A DNA stretch of 64,000 bases from an uncultured Flavobacteriaceae bacterium (lineage in GTDB: Bacteria; Bacteroidota; Bacteroidia; Flavobacteriales; Flavobacteriaceae). A program made the translations under genes and the position numbers. How positions within the stretch are numbered: position 1 is the stretch's first letter; each line of letters starts with the position of its first letter. The DNA lies in the NCBI GenBank assembly GCA_937959395.1, contig CALGLR010000023.1:1-64000 (forward strand). Direction: 5' to 3'. The notes under the pieces are model-generated. The model did not search any database and had not been told where the DNA came from. It saw only the letters and a program-made list of their open reading frames with translations. Positions 280 to 34,632 of the stretch are shown piece by piece.

Positions 280-560
280 AATTAGGAAATTGCATCATTC
301 TGCGTAAGTTTTTCTCAGAAAATGACGTTCCATATTCAGTTACTAATTGTCGTGACAGTGATACGACAATTTGTTTTTCCATATGTTGCTCTTTCATTTT
401 GTAAGACCTTGGACTACCCAATAATTTTTGCACCAATTTGCCAATACATTATTTGACTCATCGTTGCATTAACGGAGCGCGCAATTTGTTGTTTGCTATT
501 CTCTATAAGTAAACTAATGTCTTTAGCAGCATCTTGCATGTTATTTAATTCATTATTCAT
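280..560 (-). pseudogene. Decayed 5' fragment of a DUF1016 (YhcG-like) nuclease gene
   Basis: The minus strand aligns with the first ~270 bases of the intact gene at 31461-32513, beginning with the equivalent start codon at 558-560. The copy is broken: an extra T in the run at about 375, an indel stretch around 410-425 and a further insertion near 450 destroy the frame. Everything downstream of codon ~90 is missing. The fragment holds only part of the N-terminal DUF1016_N region and none of the C-terminal PD-(D/E)xK nuclease residues, so it cannot encode an active enzyme. It is best read as a remnant left by duplication or a second integration event. Confidence 0.85.
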
Positions 561-1204
561 GTGAATTAGTTTTTTGTTAAAATGAGTAACTCTCTTATCT
601 ATATATCGAGCATTTTTGCAATTTAAAACAAGGTTTAACTCTTGGTTGTATTTCGTTTCTACATTATTTAGATATTGTAATGCAGTTCATTTATAATTGA
701 TTAGCTAATCATTTGTAGGCCTACCTTTTTCAACTAAATAGCCTTTATGTGATTGTAAACTTCCTTATGCAATATGAAAATTATCGTTGAAAATCAAATG
801 TAATGACTTCGCTTGAAATGATATCGAATTATGATTAAAATTTAGATGACAATTTACTTCCAGCTATGCTTCACTTGTAACTCCTGAATATGTATTAAGT
901 ATTTTTCTAGAGTTTTACCTTGTACACATGTACCTTTTGGATTTTTCATTATGAATTGAAAAAGACAATAGCTGAACCTCTTAAATTAGATATACTAAAA
1001 TATAGCTAGAACCCATAAAGTTGTGAATTCTTAGTAAAATGAACGTATTAATTATACTCCAAAAATGTACTCTGGCAATAAAAAAATGATTTATTATTTC
1101 AGTATATTAATTATTAGATATTTAGAGTACTGATTGATAGGATTTGTAACCCGAGGATCTTTATTAAAACAGAATAAATTAACAGAAAAAAATAAAGAAA
1201 ATAA

Positions 1205-1242
1205 AAAAGGCAAAAATATTAATAATAAATGTTTTAGCTTTT
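1205..1242 (-). terminator. Hairpin after tRNA-like segment A (degenerate)
   Basis: An A-rich/T-rich imperfect inverted repeat lies directly 3' (minus strand) of the tRNA-Met-like segment. It corresponds to the better preserved hairpin at 33172-33210 of the right repeat copy. It probably derives from the terminator of a tRNA gene. Confidence 0.4.
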
Positions 1243-1247
1243 TGTCT

Positions 1248-1292
1248 GTAGCGAGAAGGGGGCACGATCCCCCGACCTCCGAGTTATGAACC
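1248..1292 (-). repeat. tRNA-Met-like 3' half, att-like site A
   Basis: Read on the minus strand this is the right half of a tRNA: CAT anticodon loop (TTCATAA), the 3' anticodon strand, a variable loop, a T-stem of GGGGG/CCCCC, and an acceptor strand ending CTCGCTAC. The 5' half (acceptor, D-arm, 5' anticodon strand) is absent, and the T-loop reads ATCGTGC rather than TTCGANY, so it is not a functional tRNA. Two near-identical copies lie at 28304-28348 and 33214-33258. Identity breaks in the anticodon loop, a common crossover point for tyrosine integrases at tRNA genes, so an attachment-site remnant is the most likely reading. Confidence 0.7.
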
Positions 1293-2814: not shown

Positions 2815-2856
2815 TCTATTTTTCTACGGAATTGTTTTAAACTTTTTTAACTTTTA

Positions 2857-6618: not shown

Positions 6619-6662
6619 TTTTTAGTTGTTTATGTCTTCCTTTTTTGAATTCTTAGTTATAT

Positions 6663-6955
6663 GTCTGGTCGAGCCCTTCGACTATCGCTCAGGACAGGCT
6701 AAAGTCGAGACCTTGTTAATATTGATATTTTAGATGTATAAACACCTCTCGACTGCGCTCGAGGAGCCATTGTTTTTTCAATATTACAAAGCACTAAATA
6801 GTGGCTTCGGCTACACTCAGCCACCGAGCATTATAATAAATTGATATTAACTAAGGAGTTTGTTGACTGAGCGTAGCCGAAGTTACCAAAACTTAAATTC
6901 ATTATCATATAATTTGCCCCTAATAATGCGCCCCTGAAACACCTTCAGGGTGACG
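6663..6955. repeat. Cluster of REP-like palindromes
   Basis: The cobW-cobN gap holds at least five short palindromic units: 6663-6712 (GGTCGAGCCCTTCGAC... and its partner), 6745-6764 (CTCGACTGCGCTCGAG), 6801-6826 and 6863-6885 (a facing pair built on GGCTTCGGCTACACTCAG), and 6931-6955 (CCCTGAAACACCTTCAGGG). The first is nearly identical to 19906-19954. Such units are typical dispersed intergenic repeats of flavobacteria and may stabilise or terminate mRNA inside the operon. Confidence 0.75.
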
Positions 6956-6968
6956 TAAAATTCATGAA

Positions 6969-7991: not shown

Positions 7992-8048
7992 TTTACTATA
8001 TTTTTAATATTATACGATCTTGATTTTTATATAAAGCCATTTATAAGT

Positions 8049-8639
8049 CTATGACTTAACTATTTTCTTCTTTCGCTTGTAGAGAAATAAATTCCATTTT
8101 TCTTCTGCAACACCATGCTTATCCATCTCTGCTCTAGCCATAGTGAAAAACAAATCGGACAATCGATTAATGTAAGCTGAAATATAAGAATGCACACAGT
8201 CTGGATCTTCTCGCATTAATGAAACCAGCGAGCGTTCTCCTCTTCGCATTTGTGTACGGCAAACATGACATAATGCAGAGATTTCATTTCCTCCAGGTAA
8301 CAAAAAATAATCTGAAGGTGACGTCATTTTTCCTTCCATAAAATCGATCCACTGTTCACAAAAATCGGCACCATCTTTTGGTTCCGGATTGGTGTTCTCT
8401 TTTTTAGAATCTGAAGGGCGCGCTAAATGCGACATCATATTCATTAAATCTTTTTGAATACGGTGTAAATTGGATTGCCATTCATGATCATTTCCTAATT
8501 TAGCTCTTAGTAAACCTATGGTTGAATTGGCTTCGTCTAAATTACCTAGAGTATCCATTCTGGCAGAGTCTTTAAACTCTCGTTTTCCTCCAAAAACTCC
8601 AGTTTGCCCTTTATCTCCTTTGCGTGTGTATATGTTCAT
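8049..8639 (-). CDS. cobO/pduO-type: Cob(I)alamin adenosyltransferase, PduO type
   Basis: A 196-residue PduO-family ATP:corrinoid adenosyltransferase. The N-terminal MNIYTRKGDKGQTGVFGGKR is the family's ATP-binding segment; later segments include RMDTLGNLDEANS, the C-terminal ISAYINRLSDLFF and GERSLVSL. It attaches the 5'-deoxyadenosyl group to the Co(I) corrinoid in the cytoplasm. It lies 4 bases after cbiA, so it is translated as part of the same operon. CobA/BtuR-type adenosyltransferases look quite different, so the PduO assignment is firm; I avoid a single symbol because naming differs between species. Confidence 0.94.
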   Translation of the reverse strand: MNIYTRKGDKGQTGVFGGKREFKDSARMDTLGNLDEANSTIGLLRAKLGNDHEWQSNLHRIQKDLMNMMSHLARPSDSKKENTNPEPKDGADFCEQWIDFMEGKMTSPSDYFLLPGGNEISALCHVCRTQMRRGERSLVSLMREDPDCVHSYISAYINRLSDLFFTMARAEMDKHGVAEEKWNLFLYKRKKKIVKS

Positions 8640-8643
8640 AATC

Positions 8644-9978
8644 TTATGTATTAAGTACTTCTGTTTTTTTAATTGAATTCATTTCTAATAAAGCATCTAG
8701 CAACTCATTGGTCCCAAAATAGACATGCACGTAAGATGCTAGAACGTTTTTATAACGGTATAGTTCGGTGTTTACAACATCACCTCTTGCATTAATTATC
8801 GTCCCTAAATGATTTGTGTTTGTTTCTTTTTCTAATGTTGAATAATGAAATTCATGCCCTTTAATTATAGTATCGTTGTATCTAATTTCGCGATACCCTA
8901 AATTAAGTTTCATGGTTTCCATGGAGGTTTCAAAATCAAATACATTTGCCATTCTAAAACGAACACCTTCTTTATTAATGATGCTTTTGCCTAGATACAT
9001 CATCCCTCCACATTCTGCAATAATTGGGTTTCCGTTCTCGGCATGTTGTTTTATACTTGCAAGCATCGTTTTGTTTTCAGAGAGTTCTGCTGTATATAAT
9101 TCTGGATAACCGCCAGGTAAATACACTAAATCGGCATCTGGTAATTGCGCATCATTAATCGGACTGAAATACACAACCGTACCTTTTCGTTTTAAACTTT
9201 CTATGTTTTGAATGTAACTGAAATTAAAACCTTCGTCCTTTGCAACAGCTATTGTATAACTGTTTTGCTGAAGTTTAATTTGTCTCGTATTTACTTCAGG
9301 TTTTTCTTTATTTGTAATTTCTAATAATTCATCAATAGCTACTGTTTTTTCTAAAGCGGAAGCAATCGTTTCAATAACAGAATCGTACGTTTTTATTTTA
9401 TGGATAGACAATCCTAAATGTCTGGAAGGTATTTCACATTCCGCTAAAAAAGGAAGGTGACCTAAGGCTTTTATTCCCACATCTTCGCAAGCCTCTATTA
9501 AAAACTGATAATGACTTTTCGTATTTACACGATTAAAAATAACGCCAGCGATATTTAGCTCTTTGTCAAAATTTTTAAAACCGTATAATAATGGCGCCAC
9601 AGAGTAAGCAACCGATTTCGCATTGACCACAAAAATGATTGGCAGTTCTAATAGTTTTGCTAATTCTGCTGTACTTCCTTTTGATTTTCTTGCACCGTCA
9701 AACAAACCCATAACACCTTCCACACAAACGGCTTCTGCCGTATTAGAATACTCAGAATAGGTGGATTTAATATGTGATTTATCCATCATATATAAATCCA
9801 GGTTAACGCCTATTTTATCGCAAGCCAATTCATGAAACTTAGGATCAATATAATCAGGTCCGCATTTAAAAGATTGCGGCGATAATCCTCTGTTTTTTAA
9901 TGCACGTAATAACCCAAGAGTTACGGTTGTCTTACCAGAATTACTAGTTGGTGCTGCGATTATAAACTGTGGTTTCAT
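8644..9978 (-). CDS. cbiA/cobB: Cobyrinate/hydrogenobyrinate a,c-diamide synthase
   Basis: A 444-residue glutamine-dependent amidating enzyme that converts the a and c carboxylates of the corrin ring to amides. The N-terminal dethiobiotin-synthetase-like domain begins IIAAPTSNSGKTTVTLGLLRAL (P-loop), and FKCGPDYIDPKFHELA is highly typical of CbiA/CobB. The C-terminal class I glutamine amidotransferase domain has the nucleophile in AECGGMMYLG. Whether the true substrate already carries cobalt depends on which chelatase acts, which this cluster leaves open. It lies 8 bases from cobU and 4 from the adenosyltransferase. Confidence 0.95.
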   Translation of the reverse strand: MKPQFIIAAPTSNSGKTTVTLGLLRALKNRGLSPQSFKCGPDYIDPKFHELACDKIGVNLDLYMMDKSHIKSTYSEYSNTAEAVCVEGVMGLFDGARKSKGSTAELAKLLELPIIFVVNAKSVAYSVAPLLYGFKNFDKELNIAGVIFNRVNTKSHYQFLIEACEDVGIKALGHLPFLAECEIPSRHLGLSIHKIKTYDSVIETIASALEKTVAIDELLEITNKEKPEVNTRQIKLQQNSYTIAVAKDEGFNFSYIQNIESLKRKGTVVYFSPINDAQLPDADLVYLPGGYPELYTAELSENKTMLASIKQHAENGNPIIAECGGMMYLGKSIINKEGVRFRMANVFDFETSMETMKLNLGYREIRYNDTIIKGHEFHYSTLEKETNTNHLGTIINARGDVVNTELYRYKNVLASYVHVYFGTNELLDALLEMNSIKKTEVLNT

Positions 9979-9986
9979 ACGTAGTC

Positions 9987-10499
9987 TTACTTTACTTTTA
10001 ATGGCAATCCTGATACCATTAGCGTTACTTTTTCTGCTTTTTTTGCAATGTATTGATTCATTAGCCCTTGTAAATCCACGAATTTTCGTGTAGCAGCTTC
10101 CATGGGGATTACTCCCATTCCTATTTCATTAGACACTACAATAAGTGTGACGTCTTGAGTTAATAATTCGTCCCAAAGCGCTTTCGCTTTTTTCAAGGTT
10201 TTTTCTGTGCCGTATTTTTGTTCATCATAGATATTTGTTAACCAAAGTGTAATACAATCTAACAGCACTGTTTTACTCGAAAAATCATGCTTTGGCAAGT
10301 CTATTTCTTCTTCAATGGTTATCCAAGAATTAGAACGACTATTTATATGTTTCTCAATACGCTTTGCATGTTCATCATCCCACTTTTTAGAGGTTGCTAA
10401 ATAAATTGGAGCCTCATCGTTTTCTATACCCAACTGTTCTGCGTAAGCACTCTTCCCTGAGCGTTGTCCTCCTGTTATTAAATGTACTTTAGCTGCCAT
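9987..10499 (-). CDS. cobU: Adenosylcobinamide kinase / adenosylcobinamide-phosphate guanylyltransferase
   Basis: A 170-residue bifunctional CobU/CobP. The P-loop ITGGQRSGKSAYAEQL is at the N terminus, followed by IYLATSKKWDDEHAKRIEKH, whose conserved His forms the guanylylated intermediate, and VVSNEIGMGVIPMEAATRKFVDL near residue 125. It phosphorylates adenosylcobinamide and then activates it with GTP to AdoCbi-GDP, which CobS would join to alpha-ribazole. It follows the ChlI/ChlD gene by two bases. No cobS is found in the window although its substrate-forming step is here. Confidence 0.95.
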   Translation of the reverse strand: MAAKVHLITGGQRSGKSAYAEQLGIENDEAPIYLATSKKWDDEHAKRIEKHINSRSNSWITIEEEIDLPKHDFSSKTVLLDCITLWLTNIYDEQKYGTEKTLKKAKALWDELLTQDVTLIVVSNEIGMGVIPMEAATRKFVDLQGLMNQYIAKKAEKVTLMVSGLPLKVK

Positions 10500-10501
10500 A
10501 G

Positions 10502-12169
10502 TTAAGCTTCTAATATTTGATATTCCCCTTTTACTTTCTCGGCGAACTGTTTGGCTAAACCTAATTTCACAGTCCCAGTTTCAGCGTCAACAATCGTTAA
10601 CTGTTTAATGTTTTTACAATATGTTTGATACGCAGTAACCGCATTATCGAAATCATTAACCCCTTCAGAATTAAAACGACCATCGGTAATAATGACTAAT
10701 TCGTTTTGTAAAGCGAAGTCTAGAGTGGTTATTGTTTTTATAGTCTTAAAAGCAGCGATAGCATTTGTTTTACCTCCTGTTTTCAATTCGTTTAACTTGG
10801 TAATTAACTGGCCAGCATCTTTAGACAACTTCACAACAATCGCAACATCATTATCGTACAAACTCAATAAAGAAAAACTGAGTTTGCATTGCATATTTTT
10901 AACTACCGTTTTTTCTATTTGCCCTTTTGCAAAAGCCACAATATTATCTTTAAGCATTGAACCGCTTGAATCTAACAGAAAAATAATATGTTTACCACTC
11001 TTATTTTGTACATTTTTATGTTTCAAATCAAAAGTATTAGTTGCTAAATATTGGCCTACCGTTTTTCGAGTATCCAATTGTTTTTTAGTAGTTTCTTTTA
11101 AACTGGAATGTGATTGATTTATAGAATCTAAAACGTTCTCAATTCCTTTTTTTTCAGTTGAATTTGAATGGACTTCATTTTTTAATTCACTCTCAGGAAT
11201 TACCGATTCAAAAGTAGATTCTGGTTGCCCGTTTCTTTCTTTATTTTTTTCTGAAGTATTCTGTTTCTGTTGTTCTTGATTTTTAGACGATTGATTTTGA
11301 TTAGAATCGTCATTACTTCTATGATTTAATACAAAAGGCGCTATGGCTTCAATCTGCTTTGGAGTAATTTCTGTTTCCCCTAAATACGCCGTGTAAGCTC
11401 GTGCCGTTTTTAAAAGTAAAATATCGGCACGTAATCCTTCTACTGCATGTGCACTTGCTAACTCTGCACAGTGTTTGTACAATACTTTCGGCAATTCTAT
11501 ATTCTTTAATTGTCTTTTTGCTTCTTTTAGTTTTGAATAGAGCTTATCTTCTTCCGTTTTAAAACGTTTTGAAAACGACTTTGGAGCGTCGTCAAACGCC
11601 ATTCTATTTTGAATAATTTGAGAACGCAAATCAATATCATTTGGTGTAGAAATAATAACACTTAACCCAAAACGGTCTTTTAATTGCGGACGCAAATTCC
11701 CTTCTTCAGGATTCATAGAACCAATTAAACAAAAACGGCTTTTTAATACTGCAGATATGCCTTCTCTTTCTATATGATACGATCCTGTTGAAGACGCGTC
11801 CAATAAGATATCCATTAAATAGTCATTCAATAAATTAATTTCATCGACATATAAAAAACCTTCATCTGCTTTTGCTAATAATCCTGGTGTTACTTTTTCG
11901 GTTTTATCATTAATTAATGTTTCTAAATTAATATGACCTATAACGCGGTCTTCTGAAGCTCCAATTGGTAAATTAACAAAAGGAAACGATTCTCTGGTAT
12001 TCATTAAATGTGTTAATGAACGAATTAAAGTCGTTTTTCCTGTTCCTTTATCTCCAATAGCTAAAACACCACCCAAACTAGGATCGATTATATTTAAAAG
12101 CAAGGCTAATTTTAAATCGTCTTGCCCAATTACTGCCGAAAAAGGAAAACAATGTGCTGCTGTTTCCAT
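10502..12169 (-). CDS. Fused chelatase AAA ATPase and VWA subunit (ChlI-ChlD type)
   Basis: This 555-residue protein joins the two small subunits of class I metal chelatases. The N-terminal AAA+ module has Walker A GDKGTGKTT (residues 39-47), Walker B YVDEINLLND and the sensor segment LIGSMNPEEGNLRPQLKDRFGL. A Gln/Asn/Glu/Lys-rich linker follows, and from about residue 390 a von Willebrand A domain with MIDAS motif LLDSSGSM. In the CobN pathway the CobS/CobT ATPase subunits drive cobalt insertion; in many bacteria that lack them a ChlI/ChlD-type protein next to cobN takes this role. Position in a cobalamin operon, and no chlorophyll genes here, argues for cobalt rather than magnesium. Confidence 0.92.
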   Translation of the reverse strand: METAAHCFPFSAVIGQDDLKLALLLNIIDPSLGGVLAIGDKGTGKTTLIRSLTHLMNTRESFPFVNLPIGASEDRVIGHINLETLINDKTEKVTPGLLAKADEGFLYVDEINLLNDYLMDILLDASSTGSYHIEREGISAVLKSRFCLIGSMNPEEGNLRPQLKDRFGLSVIISTPNDIDLRSQIIQNRMAFDDAPKSFSKRFKTEEDKLYSKLKEAKRQLKNIELPKVLYKHCAELASAHAVEGLRADILLLKTARAYTAYLGETEITPKQIEAIAPFVLNHRSNDDSNQNQSSKNQEQQKQNTSEKNKERNGQPESTFESVIPESELKNEVHSNSTEKKGIENVLDSINQSHSSLKETTKKQLDTRKTVGQYLATNTFDLKHKNVQNKSGKHIIFLLDSSGSMLKDNIVAFAKGQIEKTVVKNMQCKLSFSLLSLYDNDVAIVVKLSKDAGQLITKLNELKTGGKTNAIAAFKTIKTITTLDFALQNELVIITDGRFNSEGVNDFDNAVTAYQTYCKNIKQLTIVDAETGTVKLGLAKQFAEKVKGEYQILEA

Positions 12170-12172
12170 AGT

Positions 12173-12883
12173 TTATGTTGTAGAATTATAAATTAAAACA
12201 AGTCCCAATAGAATTGAAGCAATACCTGCCATACCATTCATCCATTTAAAAACAGATAGATTTTTCTCAATAAAACGACTCATTATGGAGACTAAAGAAT
12301 AACTGTAAACTCCCATAGCGATAATAATTCCTGCCGATTCTATTACCAATATTAAAATGGCATCAAAAGTCGTCGCTGCACTTAATACCAATGCAGATGT
12401 TAATGCGCCTCCCGTTCCTGCTAAACCATGTAACATACCAATCCAAAACGACCGCTTCATAGGGTTCATCGCGATTTCCTCTCCAGATTTACCATGCAAA
12501 TGAATTGGGTTAGAAACATCATGCTCATGCGCTTCTATTTTCTTATGTTCCTGGATCATTTCATTTATTTTATGATTCCGTTTTATAGCGGTAACTCCCA
12601 ACCAAACTATAATAGGCCCCACAGCTATTTCTGCCCAAAATGAAATATCTTGTATAAAATTTACTGCTATCGATTTAAATGCTAATGCAATACCTCCAAA
12701 CAATAATAGTGTTACCGAATGCCCCATCGCCCATTGCGAAGCTTTTAATACTGTTTTAAAAGAGGTGCGTTCTTTGGTTATTGCTTTTTCTGTTGCTAAA
12801 ACCGAAACCGCTGTAATGTGATCGGGTTCGAAAGAGTGTAAAACCCCTGCCATTAATGGGCGTAGCATGTTTGTAAATGTCAT
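12173..12883 (-). CDS. NicO/NiCoT-like cobalt or nickel transporter
   Basis: A 236-residue polytopic membrane protein with about six hydrophobic segments. The first carries H-S-F-E-P-D-H (residues 16-22), which is the HX4DH metal-binding motif of NiCoT permeases, and a second motif GHSVTLLLFG resembles the HSVV signature. A His-rich cytosolic loop (HKKIEAHEHDVSNPIHLHG, about 113-131) lies in the middle as in RcnA/NicO proteins. It overlaps cbiD by four bases, so translational coupling to corrin synthesis is likely, and uptake of Co2+ for the chelatase is the natural role; an export role as in RcnA cannot be excluded by sequence. Confidence 0.8.
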   Translation of the reverse strand: MTFTNMLRPLMAGVLHSFEPDHITAVSVLATEKAITKERTSFKTVLKASQWAMGHSVTLLLFGGIALAFKSIAVNFIQDISFWAEIAVGPIIVWLGVTAIKRNHKINEMIQEHKKIEAHEHDVSNPIHLHGKSGEEIAMNPMKRSFWIGMLHGLAGTGGALTSALVLSAATTFDAILILVIESAGIIIAMGVYSYSLVSIMSRFIEKNLSVFKWMNGMAGIASILLGLVLIYNSTT

Positions 12884-13971
12884 TTATTTATATATTTAAT
12901 ATAGCTTCCATCTTTACCAATAAGGTAAATATCTAGCGCTGTTTTATTAATAATTACTTTGGTTTGCTCGTAACATTTCTCAAGGAGTCTTTGGTAGAAT
13001 AGTTCGTCTTCATTAAAAGAAAACAGTTCTATTAAGCGCCCTGCCATGTTTAAGTTTTTAATTTCATTTTGAATCTGTTCATCATAGCCACATGATGCCG
13101 CTATGTTGGAAACAAAATCTTTATTCCAACTCGAAATACAACTGTGTGTATCCGTTTTTCCGTAGGCTAATTTTACAGCCTTCCCCAGCATAATGCCTAT
13201 TGTCACTTTTTTAATAGGTGCTGTTTTTATTTTTTTTAGAGTCTCTCCAATCCAATTACCATAATGAATAAAACCTTGGGCACTTGTATCTGGAAATAAT
13301 GCCTTTAAATATTTTTCACTTCTTCCCCCAGAATTTATAACCAATTCATCAATACCGTTTGCCACAGCAACATCGATACCTTGAACAATACTTGCGATAT
13401 AAGATGCCGATGAATACGGTTTTACAATACCTGTAGTTCCTAAAATAGATAGGCCGTTCATAATACCAACACGCTCATTTAGCGTACGCTTAGCTAGTTT
13501 TTTCCCATCAGTTACAAAAACGGAAATCGTGACACCGCACTCTAAATCATAATCATGCAGTAATTTCTTTACCGCATTTTCCATCATTTGGCGTGGTACA
13601 GGATTTATTGCTGGCTCTCCAACATTAAGTTCTAAACCTGGCAGAGTTACTGTCCCCACGCCTTCTCCTCCAATAAAAACAATGTCTTTATTTGTGGTTA
13701 ATTGTACTTCGCAACCTACTTCTGCTCCATTAGTAACATCTGGATCGTCTCCCGCATCTTTTATAACACTACATTTTGCCCAATTGGATTGGTAATCGTT
13801 AGTATGTATTTTAATGGTCAATACTTTATCTATTGGCAGCTGTACATTTACTAGATCTTGCTTTTCTTGTTTAATAATAGACACCAATGCAGCCTTCGCT
13901 GCTGCAGTAGCAGAAGTTCCAGTGGTAAACCCTTCTCTTAAAGGGCCTTTTGGTATCGCTCTTAAACCCAT
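12880..13971 (-). CDS. cbiD: Cobalt-precorrin-5B C1-methyltransferase
   Basis: A 363-residue CbiD, the SAM-dependent methyltransferase that installs the C1 methyl group after CbiG has opened the delta-lactone. The N-terminal LREGFTTGTSATAAAKAAL is the signature of the family (the usual Cys after GFTTGT is Ser here), followed by CSVIKDAGDDPDVTNG and GGEGVGTVTLPGLELNVGEPAINPVPR. CbiD belongs to the anaerobic, early-cobalt route; the aerobic counterpart CobF is absent. It overlaps the start of the transporter gene by four bases and the end of cobK by one, so these three genes are tightly coupled. Confidence 0.96.
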   Translation of the reverse strand: MGLRAIPKGPLREGFTTGTSATAAAKAALVSIIKQEKQDLVNVQLPIDKVLTIKIHTNDYQSNWAKCSVIKDAGDDPDVTNGAEVGCEVQLTTNKDIVFIGGEGVGTVTLPGLELNVGEPAINPVPRQMMENAVKKLLHDYDLECGVTISVFVTDGKKLAKRTLNERVGIMNGLSILGTTGIVKPYSSASYIASIVQGIDVAVANGIDELVINSGGRSEKYLKALFPDTSAQGFIHYGNWIGETLKKIKTAPIKKVTIGIMLGKAVKLAYGKTDTHSCISSWNKDFVSNIAASCGYDEQIQNEIKNLNMAGRLIELFSFNEDELFYQRLLEKCYEQTKVIINKTALDIYLIGKDGSYIKYINK

Positions 13972-26264: not shown

Positions 26265-27718
26265 AGGCTAATATCATTAAGAATTTTATCCATATCTAAA
26301 TGCTCACCAATTAATTTAGCTAATTTTTCATAGTTCTGCTCTTTAAATTCTTGGTAGTTTATTGTTTCTTTTTCTTTGTATTTTATTGCTAATAACTCTT
26401 CAACTACAAAACTATTATCGAAAATACCATGAATATAAGTGCCCCAACTTAGCTTACCATCAAAATAGCCTTCAGGAATCTCATTTATTGTATTTAAATG
26501 CTTTCCTTCAGGTACCTTTGTCTCTCCCATGTGTATTTCGTAACCTTTACATTTTTGTAGATGATCTTTAAATTGAAATTCTTGCTGTATGGTTGTTTTT
26601 GTTTCCGTTAAAACCGTATCTATATTAAATAAACCTAGTCCTTTTATGTTTTTCAAATTGCTTTCAACTTCAAAAGGATCACTTATTGTTTTTCCCATCA
26701 TTTGATAACCTCCACAAATTCCAATAATTGGAACAGATCCGTAACGTTGTTTAATAATAGCCGTTATACCATCTTCTTCTAAAGCTTTGAAATCGGCTAG
26801 AGTGTTTTTTGTTCCAGGAAGAATAATAACATCGGCGTTATTGATTTCAGAATGTACTCTTGTATAATACAAATGAATGTTTTCATTTTGCTCAAGAGGT
26901 TGAAAATCGGTATAATTTGAAATATAATTTAATTTAATAACCGCTACGTTTAATTTTTCTGAGCTTGATGTTGTTTTTCTTTGTTCTAATGCAACAGAAT
27001 CTTCTTCTTCAATAAATATATCTTTTGCATAAGGCAAAACGCCTAGTACAGGATAACCAGTAATTTCTTCTAGCTTTTTAACACCAGAATCGAAAAGCGC
27101 AGCATCGCCTCTAAATTTATTAATTATTATTCCTTTAAGTAATTGTTTTTCCCAATCTTCTAACAAAGCTATTGTACCATAAACACTTCCAAAAACACCT
27201 CCTTTATCAATATCTGCAATTAAATACACACAAGCATTAGCTGCTTTTGCCATTCGCATGTTTACAATATCTCTATGTTTTAGATTGAGCTCGCTAATAC
27301 TACCAGCACCCTCCATTACTATTGGGCTGAATTCTTTATTTAGGGTATTGAATGCTTTCTTTGCGGCTTCAAATAGTTGTTTTTTATCATTTCCTAAAAA
27401 ATAATCTTTAGCAGTTTGGTTTCCAATTGACACTCCATTTAATACAACTTGAGATTTCGTTTCTCCTGAAGGTTTTAGCAATATGGGATTCATTTCTACC
27501 TGACAAGGTAATTTACAAGCTTCTGCTTGAACAGCTTGTGCTCTACCAATCTCTTTTCCGTATATCGTTACAAAACTATTTAAAGACATATTTTGAGACT
27601 TAAAAGGAGCTGGCTGGTAATTCTTATTCTTTAACCAACGACAAATACCTGCTACAATCCAGCTTTTTCCTACATCGGAAGCTGTTCCTACTATCATTAT
27701 AGGTCGTTTTTTAGTCAT
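26258..27718 (-). CDS. cobQ/cbiP: Cobyric acid synthase
   Basis: A 486-residue glutamine-dependent amidotransferase that amidates the b, d, e and g side chains of adenosylcobyrinate a,c-diamide. N-terminal P-loop-like GTASDVGKSWIVAGICRWL, then PFKSQNMSLNSFVT and EAGRAQAVQAEA-like GRAQAVQAEACKL, VMEGAGSISELNLKHRDIVNM, and a C-terminal class I glutaminase with GICGGYQMMG (nucleophile Cys) and YIHGIFDN. It is the first gene of the upstream sub-operon. The start at 27718 gives the common MTKKRPIMIVGTASDVGKS beginning. Confidence 0.95.
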   Translation of the reverse strand: MTKKRPIMIVGTASDVGKSWIVAGICRWLKNKNYQPAPFKSQNMSLNSFVTIYGKEIGRAQAVQAEACKLPCQVEMNPILLKPSGETKSQVVLNGVSIGNQTAKDYFLGNDKKQLFEAAKKAFNTLNKEFSPIVMEGAGSISELNLKHRDIVNMRMAKAANACVYLIADIDKGGVFGSVYGTIALLEDWEKQLLKGIIINKFRGDAALFDSGVKKLEEITGYPVLGVLPYAKDIFIEEEDSVALEQRKTTSSSEKLNVAVIKLNYISNYTDFQPLEQNENIHLYYTRVHSEINNADVIILPGTKNTLADFKALEEDGITAIIKQRYGSVPIIGICGGYQMMGKTISDPFEVESNLKNIKGLGLFNIDTVLTETKTTIQQEFQFKDHLQKCKGYEIHMGETKVPEGKHLNTINEIPEGYFDGKLSWGTYIHGIFDNSFVVEELLAIKYKEKETINYQEFKEQNYEKLAKLIGEHLDMDKILNDISLC

Positions 27719-28269
27719 TTTATTCCCTAAAGCATTATAATTTTACTGTTTTATAAAGCTCAAAAATAATACTAAAATTAAGAATAATTATACTTCTCTC
27801 TACATTAATAAAACTGATAAAATGATACGTATTAATATAAATAATAACTAAAAGTAAATCCTGATTTCATAATTAATGACCAAACATCTACCTTAATAAA
27901 AACAAAGATGAGCTCCATTTTTATTAAAGTTTACTTATTATAAAATATTTTTTGTGTGACTTTTATTTTACTTAGTAAACGGATGAAATCTAAATTCAAT
28001 AAATAGAAATGATTCACAACTGAGAAAGCTTATATCAATCTAATTTTGACCATATATTTAATATTTCAAGAAATTATGTTCCTGATCTATGTATGCTTAT
28101 GAATGTTGATCAAAATGTTAAGTTTAGAGGACTTAGAAAACTTCTTTCAGAAAAAATAAAAAACAATATTTCATTTATTATGAGTGCTTTTTAATAGCAA
28201 AACCAAGTTTGAAACAGTACTTTTATTAAAATATGAAAAATTAAATTAATTTTTGAAGTGGTAAAATAA
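27719..28269. other. Spacer upstream of cobQ
   Basis: No riboswitch-like elements are present. The minus strand has TATTTTTG at 27761-27768, which fits TAnnTTTG and may be the cobQ promoter (weak). An unexplained open stretch of 56 codons on the plus strand (28024-28194) has no recognisable product. Confidence 0.5.
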
Positions 28270-28300
28270 AAGCAAAGCACTGAATTATAGTGCTTTGCTT
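28270..28300 (-). terminator. Perfect hairpin after tRNA-like segment B
   Basis: AAGCAAAGCACT and AGTGCTTTGCTT pair perfectly over 12 bp with a 7-base loop; on the minus strand it is followed by TTTATTTTA. It sits immediately 3' of the tRNA-Met-like segment and looks like a tRNA-gene terminator carried along with it. Confidence 0.75.
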
Positions 28301-28303
28301 ATT

Positions 28304-28348
28304 GTAGCGAGAGGGGGGCACGATCCTCCGACCTCCGGGTTATGAACC
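28304..28348 (-). repeat. tRNA-Met-like 3' half, att-like site B
   Basis: Second copy of the segment at 1248-1292, differing at about three positions. The minus strand again reads TTCATAACCCGGAGGTC, then GGAGG-ATCGTGC-CCCCC and CTCTCGCTAC. The 5' half of a tRNA is missing. It separates the cobalamin cluster (left) from the primase-helicase/nuclease pair (right). Confidence 0.7.
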
Positions 28349-28501
28349 TTTTGGGCGCAGATAAAACAAATTGACTATCAGTTTATTACGAATATGCTTG
28401 TTCGCATATACCTACATATTGCGTCCTATTGGTACTCCAAAAGTGTACTCCAATAAATATTAGATCTACTACTTACAAAAACAATGTTTTTCGAGTATTT
28501 T

Positions 28502-31486
28502 TTATATTAGTCTTTCTTGTAATAAATCTTTCCAAATTATGAAACCTTTCATCTCGTCAGAATAGTCATGAATTAATCGGCTAAAGTTTTCAGGTCGACT
28601 TAGAAGAAAAACCTGTCTTCCGTTGTTCCTAATACTATTTAGGTCAAGTTCAATTGTTTGTAAATTTTGTTGAAATAAATTTTTGTTTTTGTCAATATGC
28701 CAGATGTATGTAGCTTCTTCCGTATCTAAAGTTTCAAGAACAATATGATATTGCTCTATTCCTGTTAATAGGAATACAAAGGAAAATGGATTTAAGACAA
28801 AGCGAAGTTTTAGTATATTACTATCGTGACTCATTGCTAAATATCTTAATTGTCGAAAATGCCTGACATTCTCGTTTTGTAAAAGAGAATTCAACAATTC
28901 GTTCTCCGATTTATATAATCCTACTCCATTTTTTTCTTGCAGCTGATCTAAGTCAAGCAGATTTTTACCTATTTCTATTGAATGTTTTTTGGCGAGAATT
29001 TCCTTTTGAGTAAAACGAAATTTAACACTTTCAATGATCTCTCTATTTATCATTTCCATATCTGTAGAAGTGGCTATTTGAGAAACTAATTTCCCGTCTA
29101 CAATTTCTGCAAATATATTTGCTTCAACATTTTTTAATTTTAAAAATTTAGCAAAATAAGGTTTAAGGACATCAAACTCTGGCCTTATTTCGTCATTTTC
29201 TATTTCGAATTCAATTTCTATTGGTATCTTTAATTTCTTGTATTTGAATGTAATAGCTCCATACCGGAAATCAAGTTGATCAATTGGTACTTTTATTTTT
29301 TTATCAATAGTAATAACATTTTCAGATACTTTCTCTATGTTATCTAGTTCGTCAAATAAAGATGCTTGTCGATCAAGGTGTCGGTAATAAGTGTTTCTTT
29401 TTAGAAAAAGTTTGTTTAAGTAATCAATTTTTTGATCGTGATAATCATAGATAATAGGAGTTATTTCTGATCGTTGGACGCGACCGATATATTGAATGAG
29501 TTTTCCTTTGAAAGAGAAAGGGTAGACTAAAAAGAGACATGAAGCATTTTGCAAATCGGTTCCTTCTCCAAAAAATTGTCCTGTAGTTATTAGCGCTTGA
29601 TAATTTCCTTCATTTAAATTCTTCCATTTGGCTTTTCGATTACTTTCTGAATCCTCTCCACTTAAGGTGATAGTTTCAAAAGATTGTTTCAGAAATTGAT
29701 ATAATGTATCAATATGTTCTTTTCGTTCAGTAATTAGGATAACCTTTTTTCCAGAGTTTAACTCTTTGTGTACATCATGAAGAATAAGCTTATTCCTAGT
29801 AGAATCATGAACAAGCATCTTTGATAATGTCTCAAACGTGTCAGTTTTAGAATTAAAAGGAATATCTAATGTTGTTTCTCGTATGTTAATTCTTGCTCTC
29901 TTATAATTTTTAATTTCTTCGGGCTTAATGTCTACAATAATTTCACCTAGATGAATAAAGATTTGCTTTCCATCACTTCCTTTACGGAAAGGTGTTGCGG
30001 TTAAACCATATTGATAATAAGGAGATAGTTTAGAAATTGTTTTTCTGAATGTTTCTGCTGGAATATGATGACATTCATCAATGATTACTGTTCCGAATAA
30101 TTTGTTTAGATTTTTAATTTCTTGCTTTTCAAGTTGTTTCCCCAAACTCTGAATCATCGCTACTGTTATATGCTTACCAACTTTAGTTTTGCCTTGTCCT
30201 ATTTTTCCAATTTCATTTTTAGGAATTCCAAGAAAAGCCTGAATTCGCTCAATCCATTGTTCTAGTAATTGTTTACGATGTACTACGATTAAAGCTGGTT
30301 GTTGCTTTTCTGCGATAATTTTTAGTCCTATCACGGTTTTCCCCGAACCAGGAGGTGCTGTAATTACACCAAGATCTTTTTTAGTTACAATCTCAATTGT
30401 CTTATTTTGATATGGTCTAAGGGTTAAATTGGGAGAGAAAAGTACTGTTTGAAGTTTCTTTCTCTCATCTAGAAATTCAAAATCAATCTTTTGCTGTTTG
30501 CAATACCGAATTAGTTTTCCTATAAAACCTCTTGGAATGATGATTTCATTTTCAGTTTCTTCGATGAATTTGAAATACCTTTCTGTATTCCATGTGCTTT
30601 TATTCGTTTTCTTTTTAATGAAGTATTCTGGATTTGAAAAGTTGAGTTCATCTTTCAGAAAATTGATTAATTCTGATGTTATTCCTGATCTGTTAAGCCG
30701 AATAGAATTAATAAGAGTTATATGTAATTTGGTTGAATGAATTCTTCTGGTATCAGAAGAAGGTAGGTCGTTTACTATTAGAGATTCGAATATTTCATCT
30801 AGATGAGTAGTTTTTACTCTATGAATAGAAGATAGAAAATCCCATTGATTTTCTATTGGATTTAAATTCTCATCTACAAAACAACTGTTTCCTTGTTTCC
30901 ATGCCGTTTTATAAAATGGTAATGCAATTAGGTTCCCTAATCCTTTTCCAGAGAGAAAGTTTTGATTTGGAAACAATCGATCAAAACTTGAACTTTTGTC
31001 GAAAGCTGAAAAAACACCGATTTCTTCGAGTATAGAAATCAAAATCTTTCTACTTCTTATTGCTGGGTACGGTTGATCAAAAAATATCCAAGTATGACCA
31101 CCATTACCTGACCTTGATCTTTCGAGATATGCTGGAATACCTTTATCTAAACAGGCATCAATGAATGATTGACTTTCTTTCCTCCAATTTCGTTTGTCGA
31201 AATCGGCAGTAATAAACCAAGAAGTATTGTCCTTGAGTAAAGGGTATATGCCAACTAATTGTTCACCATTAAGGTGTTTAGTGATTTGTTGGTCTGTAAG
31301 CAGAAGATATGTTTTATCATTATAGTTTTTAAAAGTACCACCTTTCATTTTATAAAGCCGATATCTATATGGATCATAATGATAGGCAGGCATGTACCCG
31401 CTTTTGTTTCCTTTTTGCCAGTGTATTGCAAAAACGTCTTCTCTACCTTTGAATAAAGTTTTAATCAGGTTTATTTCCTTGTTCAT
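28502..31486 (-). CDS. TOTE-like archaeo-eukaryotic primase - superfamily 2 helicase
   Basis: About 994 residues. The N-terminal ~300 residues look like the AEP primase domain of TOTE conflict systems: WFITADFDKRNW with the DxD metal pair (D95, D97 from the chosen start) and SGNGGHTWIFFD with the later His. A superfamily 2 helicase follows: APPGSGKT (377-384), IIDECHH (about 468-474), YGLTATPFRKG, and the C-terminal YIGRVQRS arginine-finger motif. The last ~300 residues I do not recognise, and I see no nuclease motif there. The start at 31486 overlaps the end of the nuclease gene by 26 bases, so the two are coupled. Such systems are thought to act in genome conflict (anti-phage or element defence). 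Confidence 0.8.
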   Translation of the reverse strand: MNKEINLIKTLFKGREDVFAIHWQKGNKSGYMPAYHYDPYRYRLYKMKGGTFKNYNDKTYLLLTDQQITKHLNGEQLVGIYPLLKDNTSWFITADFDKRNWRKESQSFIDACLDKGIPAYLERSRSGNGGHTWIFFDQPYPAIRSRKILISILEEIGVFSAFDKSSSFDRLFPNQNFLSGKGLGNLIALPFYKTAWKQGNSCFVDENLNPIENQWDFLSSIHRVKTTHLDEIFESLIVNDLPSSDTRRIHSTKLHITLINSIRLNRSGITSELINFLKDELNFSNPEYFIKKKTNKSTWNTERYFKFIEETENEIIIPRGFIGKLIRYCKQQKIDFEFLDERKKLQTVLFSPNLTLRPYQNKTIEIVTKKDLGVITAPPGSGKTVIGLKIIAEKQQPALIVVHRKQLLEQWIERIQAFLGIPKNEIGKIGQGKTKVGKHITVAMIQSLGKQLEKQEIKNLNKLFGTVIIDECHHIPAETFRKTISKLSPYYQYGLTATPFRKGSDGKQIFIHLGEIIVDIKPEEIKNYKRARINIRETTLDIPFNSKTDTFETLSKMLVHDSTRNKLILHDVHKELNSGKKVILITERKEHIDTLYQFLKQSFETITLSGEDSESNRKAKWKNLNEGNYQALITTGQFFGEGTDLQNASCLFLVYPFSFKGKLIQYIGRVQRSEITPIIYDYHDQKIDYLNKLFLKRNTYYRHLDRQASLFDELDNIEKVSENVITIDKKIKVPIDQLDFRYGAITFKYKKLKIPIEIEFEIENDEIRPEFDVLKPYFAKFLKLKNVEANIFAEIVDGKLVSQIATSTDMEMINREIIESVKFRFTQKEILAKKHSIEIGKNLLDLDQLQEKNGVGLYKSENELLNSLLQNENVRHFRQLRYLAMSHDSNILKLRFVLNPFSFVFLLTGIEQYHIVLETLDTEEATYIWHIDKNKNLFQQNLQTIELDLNSIRNNGRQVFLLSRPENFSRLIHDYSDEMKGFIIWKDLLQERLI

Positions 31487-32513
31487 GAGTTCCTGATTTA
31501 TTCTTAGCGATCTCAATGGCTTGATGTAGCTTATTTTGTAATACTTCTTTAGAAGGAAGAAGTGTTAAGTACTCGGCTACTCTTATATTACTTTTATCCA
31601 ATTGTAATAATTCTATATGTTCTTCATTTTTTCCAGTACATAAAATCAAACCAATTGGACTGCCTTCTCCTTCAATAGATTCATTTTTTTCAAGGTAACG
31701 TAGATACAATTCCATTTGCCCTTTATATCCAGCTTCAAATTCTCCAATTTTAAGATCTATTGCTACCAATGATTTCAACCTTCGGTGGTAAAATGGCAAA
31801 TCAATGTAGTAATCTCTATCATCTATTGTTATTCGCTTTTGACGTGCCATAAAGGCAAAATCAGTACCCAATTCTGTAATAAATTTTTGAAGTTCTACAA
31901 GAATGGAGCTTTCTAGATCCTTTTCAGAATAGGAATCTGATAGTCCTAAGAAATCAAGAAAGTAGGGATCTCTAAAAACTAAATCTGGTGTAATTTTTTG
32001 CTCTTTATTCAGCTGCGAAAGATCATTTTTTACTGTTTGTTCTGGTTTTTTACTTATAGCTGTACGTTCATAAAGCATTGAATTTATTCGTTCTCTAAAA
32101 GTACGGACACTCCATTTTTCATGAATACACAACTGGATATAAAATTCACGTTTTAATGGGTCTTCCATTGGTATAATAGTCAATAGATGTGTCCAGCTCA
32201 ATTGTCGTATCAGCGATGCGACAATCTTCTCATCTGGAAAACAATTAGCAAATTGCATCATTCTGCGTAAGTTTTTCTCAGAAAATGACGTTCCATATTC
32301 AGTTACCAATTGTCGTGACAGTGATACGACAATTTGTTTTCCATATGTTGCTCTTTCATTTTGTAAGACCTCTTTGTTAATTTTTGCACCAATTTGCCAA
32401 TACATTTGACTCATCGTTGCATTAACGGAGAGCGCAATTTGTTGTTTGCTATTCTCTATAAGTAACCTAATGTCTTTAGCAACATCTTGTATGTTATTTA
32501 ATTCATTATTCAT
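31461..32513 (-). CDS. DUF1016 / YhcG-like PD-(D/E)xK nuclease
   Basis: A ~350-residue protein. The N-terminal DUF1016_N helical region contains YWQIGAKINKEVLQNERATYGKQIV, SRQLVTEYGTSFSEKNLRRMMQFA and IRQLSWTHLLTIIPMEDPLKREFYI. The C-terminal restriction-like nuclease has YYIDLPFYHRRLKSLVAIDLKIGEF (catalytic D...DxK) and GYKGQMELYLRYLEK. An ATG 26 codons further up is possible, but 32513 matches the usual family start and length. Members have been linked to RNA/DNA processing and to phage defence; no function is proven for this branch. Its end overlaps the primase-helicase gene. A broken copy of its 5' part lies at 280-560. Confidence 0.88.
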   Translation of the reverse strand: MNNELNNIQDVAKDIRLLIENSKQQIALSVNATMSQMYWQIGAKINKEVLQNERATYGKQIVVSLSRQLVTEYGTSFSEKNLRRMMQFANCFPDEKIVASLIRQLSWTHLLTIIPMEDPLKREFYIQLCIHEKWSVRTFRERINSMLYERTAISKKPEQTVKNDLSQLNKEQKITPDLVFRDPYFLDFLGLSDSYSEKDLESSILVELQKFITELGTDFAFMARQKRITIDDRDYYIDLPFYHRRLKSLVAIDLKIGEFEAGYKGQMELYLRYLEKNESIEGEGSPIGLILCTGKNEEHIELLQLDKSNIRVAEYLTLLPSKEVLQNKLHQAIEIAKNKSGTHEQGNKPD

Positions 32514-33171
32514 GTGAATTAGTTTTTTGTTAAAATGAGGAACTCTCTTATCTATAAATCGAGCACTTTTGCAATTTAAAAGAGGGTTCAACTCTTGGTC
32601 GCATTTCGTTTCTACATCATTTAGATATTGTAATGCAGTTCATTTATAATTGATTAGCTAATCATTTGTAGGCCCACCTTTTTCAACTAAATAGCCTTTA
32701 TGTGATTGTAAACTTATTTATGCAATATGAAACATTATCGTTGAAAATCAAATGTAATAACTTCGCTTGAAATGATATCGAATTAAAATTAAAATTTGTT
32801 AATATTTAGATAACAATTTAACCTCCAACTATAGCTTCACTTGTTACTCCTGTAATATGTGTCAGGTTTTTTTCTAGAGTTTCACCTCGTACAGATGAAC
32901 CTTTTTAATTTTTCATTATGAATTGAAAAAGACAATAGCTGAACCTCTTAAATGAGATGTACTAAAATATAGCTAGAACCCATAAAGTTGTTAATTCTTA
33001 GTAAAATTAACGTACAAAGTGTACTCCAAAAGTGTACTCTGGCAATAAAAAAAATGATTTATTATTTCAGTATTTTGATTATTAGATATTTAGAGTACTG
33101 ATTGATAGGGTTTGTAACCCGAGAGACTTTAATTGAAATAGAGCAAAAACGACTATAATAACTGTAGATAA

Positions 33172-33210
33172 AAAAGGCTAAAACGTTTATTATTAATGTT
33201 TTAGTCTTTT
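33172..33210 (-). terminator. Hairpin after tRNA-like segment C
   Basis: AAAAGGCTAAAAC pairs with GTTTTAGTCTTTT (one G-T pair) over 13 bp with a 13-base loop. It immediately follows the acceptor end of the tRNA-like segment on the minus strand. Confidence 0.6.
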
Positions 33211-33213
33211 AAT

Positions 33214-33258
33214 TGTAGCGAGAAGGGGGCACGATCCCCTGACCTCCGAGTTATGAAC
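33214..33258 (-). repeat. tRNA-Met-like 3' half, att-like site C
   Basis: Third copy of the segment at 1248-1292, nearly identical to copy A. The integrase start codon lies 170 bases away, the usual arrangement of a tyrosine recombinase and its attachment site. Confidence 0.75.
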
Positions 33259-33429
33259 TTAGAGCATTATATATCAATACGCTATATATACCTTTATAAT
33301 CAATGAATCCAAGTTTTCTAATAGTAATTAATAGCAAATAGTTGCATTTGATATCATAGAATGTTTTAGCTATGTTTTAGCAAATGTTTCATTATCGAAA
33401 TCGTATATTAACCTAATATTAAGAATGTT

Positions 33430-34632
33430 ATGTCATCAGTAACTCCTTTTTTAGATAAGCGAGCAAACGCTAAAAATTTACATCCTATAACTATTAGAAT
33501 TATAAAGGATAGAAAACCTTCATACATATATTTAGGGCAGGCAATAAAATTGAATCAATGGGATTCTAAAAATAGACGTGTAAAAAATATACATCCCGAT
33601 TACCTAGAGATCAATCAACTCATCATTACAAAGTTATCCAAGGCTAATAAGAGCATGTTAAACGCAGAAATTAAAGAGCAAAATTTATCCTCTAGAGTAA
33701 TAAAACGAAAAATAGTATCTAAAGAAGAATGTGATTTCTTCAATGTAGCTAAAAATTATTTAGCTCTAATTAAAGAAAGAAAGCAATTTCATCAGTTTGA
33801 TATTGAATTAAAGCGTATTGAAGTTTTTTATCAATTTGTAAAAAAGGACAAACTCTATTTTAATGAATTGAATATTGATCTATTAAGATCTTTTGAAGCT
33901 TATTTAAAAAACACGAGAGACTTAGCACCGAGAACAATTGCTAATTACATGATAATGATAAGAACCGTTTTTAATCTAGGTATATCTAAATCGATTACTA
34001 CCATAGAAGTTTATCCTTTTGGTAAAGGAAAATATCAAATCAGGTTTCCAGAAACTAAAAAAATAGGTCTTAGTATAGAAGAAGTCAAGGCTCTCGAAAC
34101 ATTAGAAGGTCTTACAAAAGCTCAACAGTATGCTTTAAATGCTTGGCTAATTAGTTTTTATTTTGCGGGTATACGAATAAGTGACGTTCTTCAATTAAAA
34201 TGGAGCGATTTCAAAGATGATCGATTATTATATAGAATGGACAAAAACAGTAAGTTGGTCTCTCTCAAAATTTCAGATAAAGTAAGAGATATTTTGCAAT
34301 CACTTGATAGAAATATAAACTCTGTATATTTATTTAAGGAGTTAGAAGGAATAAATGAAGATGATAGAAAATTGTTAAGAACTCGCATAAAAACTACAAC
34401 AAGAAACTTTAACAGGAGATTAGAAATAGTTGCTGAAAAAGCGGGAATTGATAAAAGTTTGAGCATGCACATCGCACGACATAGTTTTGGGAATATTTCT
34501 GGTGATAGAATTCCAATTCAGATGCTTCAAAAGCTATATCGTCATTCATCAATTACTACTACTATAATGTATCAGTCTAGTTTTATGCAAAAGGATACTG
34601 ATGAAGCTTTGGACAAGGTTATTAATTTTTGA
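33430..34632 (+). CDS. Tyrosine recombinase / integrase
   Basis: A 400-residue Bacteroidota-type site-specific recombinase: an N-terminal arm-binding domain (about 1-95), a SAM-like core-binding domain (about 100-200), and a catalytic domain. The catalytic residues can be counted as R249 (AGIRISD), H347 and R350 (HIARHSFG), H372 (YRHSS) and Y381 (IMYQS), so the protein is expected to be active. It lies right beside att-like site C and reads away from it. No excisionase, relaxase or replication gene is found close by, so it is either a lone integrase of a small genomic island or the survivor of a larger element. Confidence 0.92.
   Translation: MSSVTPFLDKRANAKNLHPITIRIIKDRKPSYIYLGQAIKLNQWDSKNRRVKNIHPDYLEINQLIITKLSKANKSMLNAEIKEQNLSSRVIKRKIVSKEECDFFNVAKNYLALIKERKQFHQFDIELKRIEVFYQFVKKDKLYFNELNIDLLRSFEAYLKNTRDLAPRTIANYMIMIRTVFNLGISKSITTIEVYPFGKGKYQIRFPETKKIGLSIEEVKALETLEGLTKAQQYALNAWLISFYFAGIRISDVLQLKWSDFKDDRLLYRMDKNSKLVSLKISDKVRDILQSLDRNINSVYLFKELEGINEDDRKLLRTRIKTTTRNFNRRLEIVAEKAGIDKSLSMHIARHSFGNISGDRIPIQMLQKLYRHSSITTTIMYQSSFMQKDTDEALDKVINF

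Follow-up and report, generated by a model that had tools for sequence, protein, structure and literature searches.

TOTE conflict systems are named after their TPR, OB and TBP components and an Effector (PMC12458937). A primase-polymerase has been implicated in the control of incoming DNA in the Thermus element ICETh2, where loss of Ppol raises the uptake of foreign DNA; the same account describes prokaryotic primase-polymerases as generally associated with mobile elements and taken for replication genes (PMC7693054). AEP-helicases, DUF1016 proteins and AbiE modules are already known individually, and YhcG/DUF1016 proteins constitute a phage defence candidate family (PDC-S02). Here, we describe a compact element in a 64,000-nt stretch of DNA, hereafter the window, from an uncultured Flavobacteriaceae bacterium (contig C23; CALGLR010000023.1), in which a DUF1016 gene overlaps a gene for an archaeo-eukaryotic primase (AEP) fused to a superfamily 2 (SF2) helicase (table 1). 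This pair recurs with the same overlap in four other genomes, and AEP-helicases related to it have other, toxin-like modules in the place of DUF1016.

The large protein contains an AEP domain of the Pfam family found in TOTE systems (AEP-TOTE, 8.3e-82, 274.7 bits where 27 would suffice), with a ResIII domain (1.2e-32) after it. The primase residues D95-x-D97 and H131, the Walker A motif and the DECHH motif of the helicase are all there, so that both a profile score over the curated cut-off and the catalytic DxD...H pattern place the protein in the AEP superfamily. D95, D97 and H131 are kept in all 33 AEP-helicase homologues covering them, K383 of Walker A in 34 of 34 covering rows, and D470 and E471 in 35 of 36. 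The small protein matches DUF1016_N (3e-48), YhcG_C (8.3e-47) and the PADLOC candidate family PDC-S02 (5.9e-130), and belongs to DUF1016/YhcG by its domains and its PD-(D/E)xK residues: D238 and K255 are invariant, and position 253 is D or E, in the nine sequences aligned. The AEP, SF2 and PD-(D/E)xK assignments that an earlier note on the window had made by eye were thereby recovered with Pfam, PADLOC and solved-structure matches, the profile search having found the primase similarity as well as the DUF1016 domains, and the 26-base overlap that it gave for the two genes was found as described.

Resemblance to known systems is partial in each case. The earlier note had called the pair ‘TOTE-like’, which stands for the AEP domain but not for the system: here the AEP domain forms one protein with an SF2 helicase, next to DUF1016, and TPR, OB and TBP gave no match at E<=0.001 on either gene between the repeats that bound the element. 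TOTE membership of the element was rejected because these partners are absent from its two genes. Ppol and Hel of ICETh2 similarly associate a primase-polymerase and a helicase gene on an integrase-borne element, but they are separate genes in Thermus, and in Meiothermus the two are joined in a fusion that also includes a DUF927 domain; the authors liken Hel to the DnaG helicase domain, and DUF1016 is not mentioned in the available part of that account (PMC7693054). The best solved relatives of the AEP part are CRISPR-associated primase-polymerases. Its nearest structures by sequence are 7nqd and 7p9j, which we take to be the CRISPR-associated PrimPol (CAPP) of Marinitoga, and the AEP-helicase differs from these enzymes by its SF2 fusion and its DUF1016 neighbour; its score against the CRISPR-associated PrimPol equivalog NF040561 (108.9 bits) stays below the cut-off of 200. 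Two PADLOC models with adjacent numbers, both labelled CRISPR-Cas-associated, match the pair: PDLC01464 (PD_DExK) matches DUF1016 at 3.4e-41 and PDLC01465 (PrimPol) matches the AEP protein at 6.6e-64. Both families may therefore have been noted near CRISPR loci before. For the helicase, the nearest structures are those of XPBII (6p4f, 5tnu). Archaeal XPB helicase partners with the Bax1 nuclease, and likewise combines an XPB-type SF2 helicase with a separately encoded nuclease; however, XPB-Bax1 is a repair system devoid of a primase, and Bax1 is not DUF1016. No account of the DUF1016/AEP-helicase pairing or of partner exchange was found in the available text of the open-licence literature, and in database records most AEP-helicase proteins go by the name of DEAD/DEAH box helicase.

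Scanning a single genome for each species, which reaches close relatives only, returned eight loci encoding the AEP-helicase at 68-92% identity. DUF1016 precedes it with an identical 26-nt overlap in four of them, namely Flavivirga aquatica (L036), an uncultured Flavobacteriaceae (L037), Aquimarina agarilytica (L038) and Flavivirga amylovorans (L040), and all five paired loci carry this overlap when the window is included. Co-occurrence outside this genome, the lack of which would have refuted the reading of the earlier note, is thus found in four others, and a pairing private to this genome is rejected. Both genes are under purifying selection, with ratios of non-synonymous to synonymous substitution rates (dN/dS) of 0.05-0.14 for DUF1016 and 0.10-0.19 for the AEP-helicase (six comparisons each).

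The pair occurs as a unit in different mobile settings. In A. agarilytica, it is located about 300 bp after an intact tRNA-Arg gene (6593-6667), and the 3' end of the same tRNA-Arg is seen by eye at the matching place in F. aquatica. In the uncultured Flavobacteriaceae genome, it stands among direct repeats of 68-187 nt, which separate the open reading frames (ORFs) around the pair (L037:4000-14000) and are free of a CGTT-anchored integron signature. In F. amylovorans (NZ_JAUOEM010000002.1), the pair is part of an integron cassette array (2763-13813). Every junction GTTNNNNNN of this array has a reverse-complementary partner where the attC closing that cassette begins, resulting in a chain of eight cassettes (junctions at 2763, 3422, 4199, 4959, 6268, 11281, 11876 and 12442), each with its own R'' of attC, as is the signature of integron cassettes. 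First-order Markov resampling, repeated 100 times, never gave a chain longer than 1, against the 8 observed. The cassette at 6268-11281 (5.0 kb) contains a gene for a helix-turn-helix (HTH) protein (6759-6968), DUF1016 (6974-8026), the AEP-helicase (8001-10979) and attC, and a tyrosine recombinase of the integron/XerA type precedes the array (1465-2355; TIGR02249, 205.6 bits for a cut-off of 265; NF040815, 214.7 for a cut-off of 220), with lower scores for XerC (175.7) and XerD (174.2). A 5-kb cassette with a regulator, a nuclease and a primase-helicase would be evidence that entire multi-gene systems can be moved by integrons. No junction/attC pair was detected in L036-L039 or in the window between 26001 and 36000; the whole 64-kb window has 10 scattered pairs, with a longest chain of 2. 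As for the remainder of the F. amylovorans array, five of the six other cassette ORFs that were scanned have no Pfam match (E<=0.01), and the other has only a weak leucine-rich-repeat match.

The HTH gene of this cassette is intact and encodes a 69-aa Xre-type protein (HTH_3, 2.1e-10). Its counterpart in the window is a remnant, recovered by tblastn in two pieces (32563-32661 and 32522-32587) with stops in all three frames, and it was not found in L036-L038. The regulator is therefore not essential for keeping DUF1016, and a role as its obligate antitoxin is made unlikely, DUF1016 being intact where the HTH gene is decayed or not found.

To place the pair among its relatives, a maximum-likelihood tree was computed from 36 AEP-helicase rows, for which the program warned of long branches and composition bias. 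It covers loci encoding more than fragments and not cut by contig ends (L032, L033, L075, L077, L080 and L081 are among those left out) that were at hand when it was built (L138-L154, including L141 and L143-L147, were fetched later); L025 and L036 are one locus, and the frame-broken AEP-helicases of L027, L031 and L085 entered with one open piece each. The five DUF1016-paired rows form one clade (SH-aLRT 100) inside a 21-row clade, in which most intact members are of about 1000 aa and two of 717-726 aa, and their neighbours carry other modules. Directly upstream, that is on the same strand with a gap of at most 150 nt, the 21 rows display DUF1016 in five cases, AbiEii in four, AlbA_2 in one and a BsuBI/PstI-type nuclease fragment in one, as well as a nucleotidyltransferase-like protein under the AbiEii cut-off in two (that of L043 by likeness to L041). 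The AbiEii rows have a DUF6088, DUF6577 or AbiEi_3 gene ahead (DUF6577 of L030 being named by likeness to L027). The position taken by DUF1016 is thus filled by different toxin-like partners in other AEP-helicases, which makes DUF1016 look like one exchangeable module.

The same position was inspected more widely. A class-level survey detected AEP over the cut-off in 11 of 395 genomes and added five full-length loci, with AbiEii upstream (L143), Fic upstream (L144), HipBA about 1.4 kb upstream (L145), no partner (L146) or a contig edge (L147), with fragments in G809, G849, G862 and G880, plus a second in G1064, left aside. Among 15 plasmid regions opened, one of them without annotation, the gene directly upstream is HigBA in Acinetobacter, an NYN-domain protein in Aeromonas and a conserved protein of 181-187 aa in three others; the remaining plasmids have a recombinase, TniQ, DUF932, an inovirus-type or an uncharacterised gene there, or no same-strand gene at all. 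On a Cupriavidus oxalaticus plasmid (L141), a Pfam-confirmed DUF1016 protein, 34% identical to that of the window, is encoded upstream of an AEP-helicase, with a 187-aa gene standing between the two. This is the only record common to the best 60 plasmid matches of each of its two proteins, for which 408 and 286 further records exist.

A control of 35 AEP-bearing genomes indicates how far such neighbourhoods exceed chance. It excludes G033 and G687 (below the cut-off), G266 (over the cut-off, but a partial match in a frame of 1873 aa) and a further fragment in G626, and uses 150 AlbA_2 matches listed of 157 counted, 88 of 88 AbiEii matches and 67 of the 80 YhcG_C matches listed, after removal of seven below the cut-off, one short fragment and the second halves of five split genes; contig breaks hide some neighbours. 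AbiEii, AlbA_2 or YhcG_C lies within 1.5 kb of the AEP gene on the same strand in 11 of the 35 genomes, and upstream in all 11 (AbiEii in 6, AlbA_2 in 3 and YhcG_C in 2, for random expectations of 0.044, 0.077 and 0.035). The three families are that near one another for only 2 of 88 AbiEii, 1 of 150 AlbA_2 and 1 of 67 YhcG_C matches; because they so rarely adjoin one another, island clustering does not readily explain the pattern around AEP. YhcG_C is present somewhere in 21 of the 35 genomes and DUF1016 adjoins the AEP gene in two, which rejects DUF1016 as a fixed partner of AEP-helicases. As to the two-gene system with this exact pairing envisaged by the earlier note, the pair does recur in four genomes, but the pairing is not a general rule.

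We hold at about even confidence that the element is a mobile anti-invader module, with a constant AEP-SF2 helicase and an exchangeable upstream effector, here the predicted DUF1016 nuclease; its substrate, the interaction of the two proteins and their activity are those that we infer. Judging from anatomy and analogy, the AEP-helicase most likely engages foreign replication intermediates, the upstream module being the effector. As the constant subunit, it would engage DNA exposing single strands or ends, such as the replication intermediates of phages or plasmids, unwind it and, if its domains are a guide, prime or extend on it. The PD-(D/E)xK nuclease would then cut the DNA exposed by the helicase, and it is plausible that DUF1016 supplies in trans a nuclease that the helicase may lack. 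The pair may thereby act against phages. In sister clades, an AbiEi-AbiEii, AlbA_2 or Fic module would take the part of the effector. A wider proposal, which we make tentatively and believe somewhat less than probable, is that AEP-SF2 helicases form the constant core of an unrecognised modular anti-invader family. Its upstream slot would accept DUF1016, AbiEi-AbiEii nucleotidyltransferases, Schlafen AlbA_2, Fic, HigBA or NYN modules as swappable effectors, the helicase sensing foreign replication intermediates and triggering whichever effector is present. Its modules would travel as integrase elements, with one genome at least in which the vehicle is a single large integron cassette. The conserved and jointly mobile pairing, together with the varied toxin-like partners, gives both the AEP-helicase and DUF1016 a testable role, and the variety of partners suggests a sensor/effector design in which the effector could be swapped experimentally.

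Several observations weigh against an anti-invader module of this design. In six of the 21 rows, the slot directly upstream is without a same-strand gene: nothing was recognised in L088 and L089, L028 has a divergent zeta toxin, L085 has AbiEi-AbiEii downstream, a relaxase-like gene is about 200 nt away in L042 and an AlbA_2 fragment about 400 nt away in L087. Two further rows have upstream only an HTH regulator (sub-threshold WYL) and a CHAP protein, respectively. The AbiE-linked AEP-helicases of L027, L031 and L085 are split by a stop or a frameshift, and the helicase may therefore be dispensable there. The AEP gene accompanies none of 10 DUF1016 relatives on viral contigs, within the stretch fetched, and the 35 control genomes are not phylogenetically independent. 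Finally, co-occurrence within the family is modest: among 397 genomes, 11 have AEP over the cut-off, 29 have YhcG_C and 2 have both (adjacent in both), against about 0.8 expected by chance.

The last figure would also suit separate action of DUF1016 and the AEP-helicase, brought together by nothing more than a common mobile defence island or cassette, as would the DUF1016 relatives without AEP that adjoin resolvases or integrase-like genes, phage integrases included. We nevertheless judge separate action very improbable, given an overlap of 26 nt kept in five of five loci up to about 20% protein divergence and the joint presence of the pair in different mobile settings. Less remote, though still unlikely in our view, is that the AEP-helicase works in the replication or restart of mobile elements, with upstream modules that make the cell retain the element through addiction or stabilisation. 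Indeed, the general link between primase-polymerases and mobile elements (PMC7693054) fits such a role, toxin-antitoxin genes are common partners, the AEP gene adjoins tandem tyrosine recombinases or Tni genes on Proteobacterial plasmids, and the helicase part has matches among phage helicase families (phrog_16, 2.5e-64). However, the 30 matches listed of 1606 records in a phage collection align from residue 241 on and exclude the primase part, and the window element has no other recognisable replication gene. This explanation, the main rival to an anti-invader module, is further weakened by the pair of F. amylovorans, as an integron cassette would have no evident need of a replication primase of its own.

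Restriction operons provide a different comparison. YhcG/DUF1016 relatives with the same two-domain architecture occur between a DNA methylase (Mod) gene and a ResIII-type Res gene in two type III-like operons (L106 and L118), hence directly before an SF2 Res gene, and between HsdM and HsdS in a third locus (L120); 47%-identity relatives of the F. amylovorans HTH protein are encoded upstream of the operons in L106 and L120. The window arrangement, an SF2 Res-type motor gene overlapping a nuclease gene, therefore resembles the DUF1016-Res pair, but with a primase domain on the motor and with the methylase missing. In a restriction system derived from types I and III, DUF1016 would cut and the ResIII-type motor would translocate, self and non-self being distinguished via an unlinked methyltransferase or the state of the DNA. 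We regard such a derivation as doubtful: no methyltransferase or specificity gene is present in the window element or among the F. amylovorans cassette ORFs and, an AEP domain is not known from type I/III restriction enzymes. A mobile anti-invader module with an exchangeable effector remains our preferred interpretation.

As regards the element itself, its two 47-nt direct repeats are 91% identical, a pattern recovered in none of 100 shuffles, and enclose a perfect inner 19-nt repeat that is a possible recombinase arm site (table 1). Among ORFs of at least 80 aa between 27718 and 33430 there is a single further one, which measures 80 aa and runs antisense within the AEP-helicase gene; the pair is otherwise alone between two att-like sites, as had been proposed. 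The att-like repeat resembles by eye the 3' part of tRNA-Met; an intact tRNA at these sites was rejected, as ARAGORN and Rfam call none (E<=1, 27700-33500). A genome of the same genus (G001) is 97.4% identical to the window from 33215 rightwards, recombinase covered, and the match ends at the repeat; to its left, G001 has the repeat, then about 135 bp that match nothing in the window and run to the end of its contig. The cassette is therefore absent there as far as the contig shows, and the recombinase is common to both. Mobility of the pair as cargo is consistent with this boundary, with the F. amylovorans cassette and with the other mobile settings; the integrase that had been counted with it lies outside the right repeat.

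The att-like sequence is found four times in the contig, in one orientation (1251, 28307, 33218 and 77287), and is thus not unique to this pair. The copy at 1251 edges a decayed second copy of the right end of the element: 280-1291 is 90% identical to 32243-33258, with stops and frameshifts in the start of DUF1016 and the repeat at its edge. Accordingly, elements of this kind have probably entered the site at least twice, and the four tRNA-Met-like copies suggest repeated use of one site family.

Table 1. Features of the DUF1016/AEP-helicase element and its surroundings in the window.
Feature	Coordinates	Strand	Basis or remark
Left att-like repeat, 47 nt	28301..28347	+	
Inner 19-nt repeat GTACTCCAAAAGTGTACTC, first copy	28432..28450	+	
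AEP primase - SF2 (XPB/ResIII type) helicase fusion, 994 aa	28502..31486	-	Pfam, structure matches; ATG 31486, stop 28502
Gene overlap, 26 nt	31461..31486	-	kept in 5/5 paired loci (window, L036, L037, L038, L040)
DUF1016/YhcG protein, predicted PD-(D/E)xK nuclease (D238, D253-x-K255), 350 aa	31461..32513	-	Pfam, PADLOC, alignment; ATG 32513, stop 31461
Decayed small Xre/HTH_3 regulator gene	32522..32740	-	tblastn with the L040 HTH protein; approximate limits
Inner 19-nt repeat, second copy, perfect	33021..33039	+	
Right att-like repeat, 47 nt	33212..33258	+	
Tyrosine recombinase (Arm-DNA-bind_5, Phage_int_SAM_5, Phage_integrase)	33430..34632	+	beyond the right repeat
Decayed second copy of the right end of the element (DUF1016 5' part, HTH remnant, att-like repeat)	280..1291	-	

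That the AEP-helicase has no nuclease of its own, as the earlier note saw it, is tentative: its C-terminal part, about 255 residues, has no Pfam family match, and its model (pLDDT 50) has no Foldseek match at E<=0.001; AlphaFold confidence is poor for the full-length protein as well (pLDDT 40). Viral contigs scanned with the AEP-helicase returned no relative, a second scan gave one helicase-only match, and the C-terminal part gave none.

Other associations were noted around AEP proteins in the course of the survey. On three Proteobacterial plasmids, the gene for the 181-187-aa protein overlaps that of the AEP-helicase by 8 nt (L141:2798-3361, L097:4316-4861 and L138:2810-3361); the 187-aa protein of L141 has a sub-threshold DUF6155 match, and this small protein is a possible constant partner on those plasmids. 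In G752, the gene of an AAA_14-DUF4143 ATPase (L084:9332-10702) overlaps the AEP-helicase gene by 4 nt, as another upstream partner. Lastly, a shorter AEP protein of about 340 aa is encoded in G484 (L148) and G754 (L149), in a similar multi-gene cluster together with a protein of about 820 aa, which in L148 matches HerA/TrwB-like ATPases and points to another AEP-based system.

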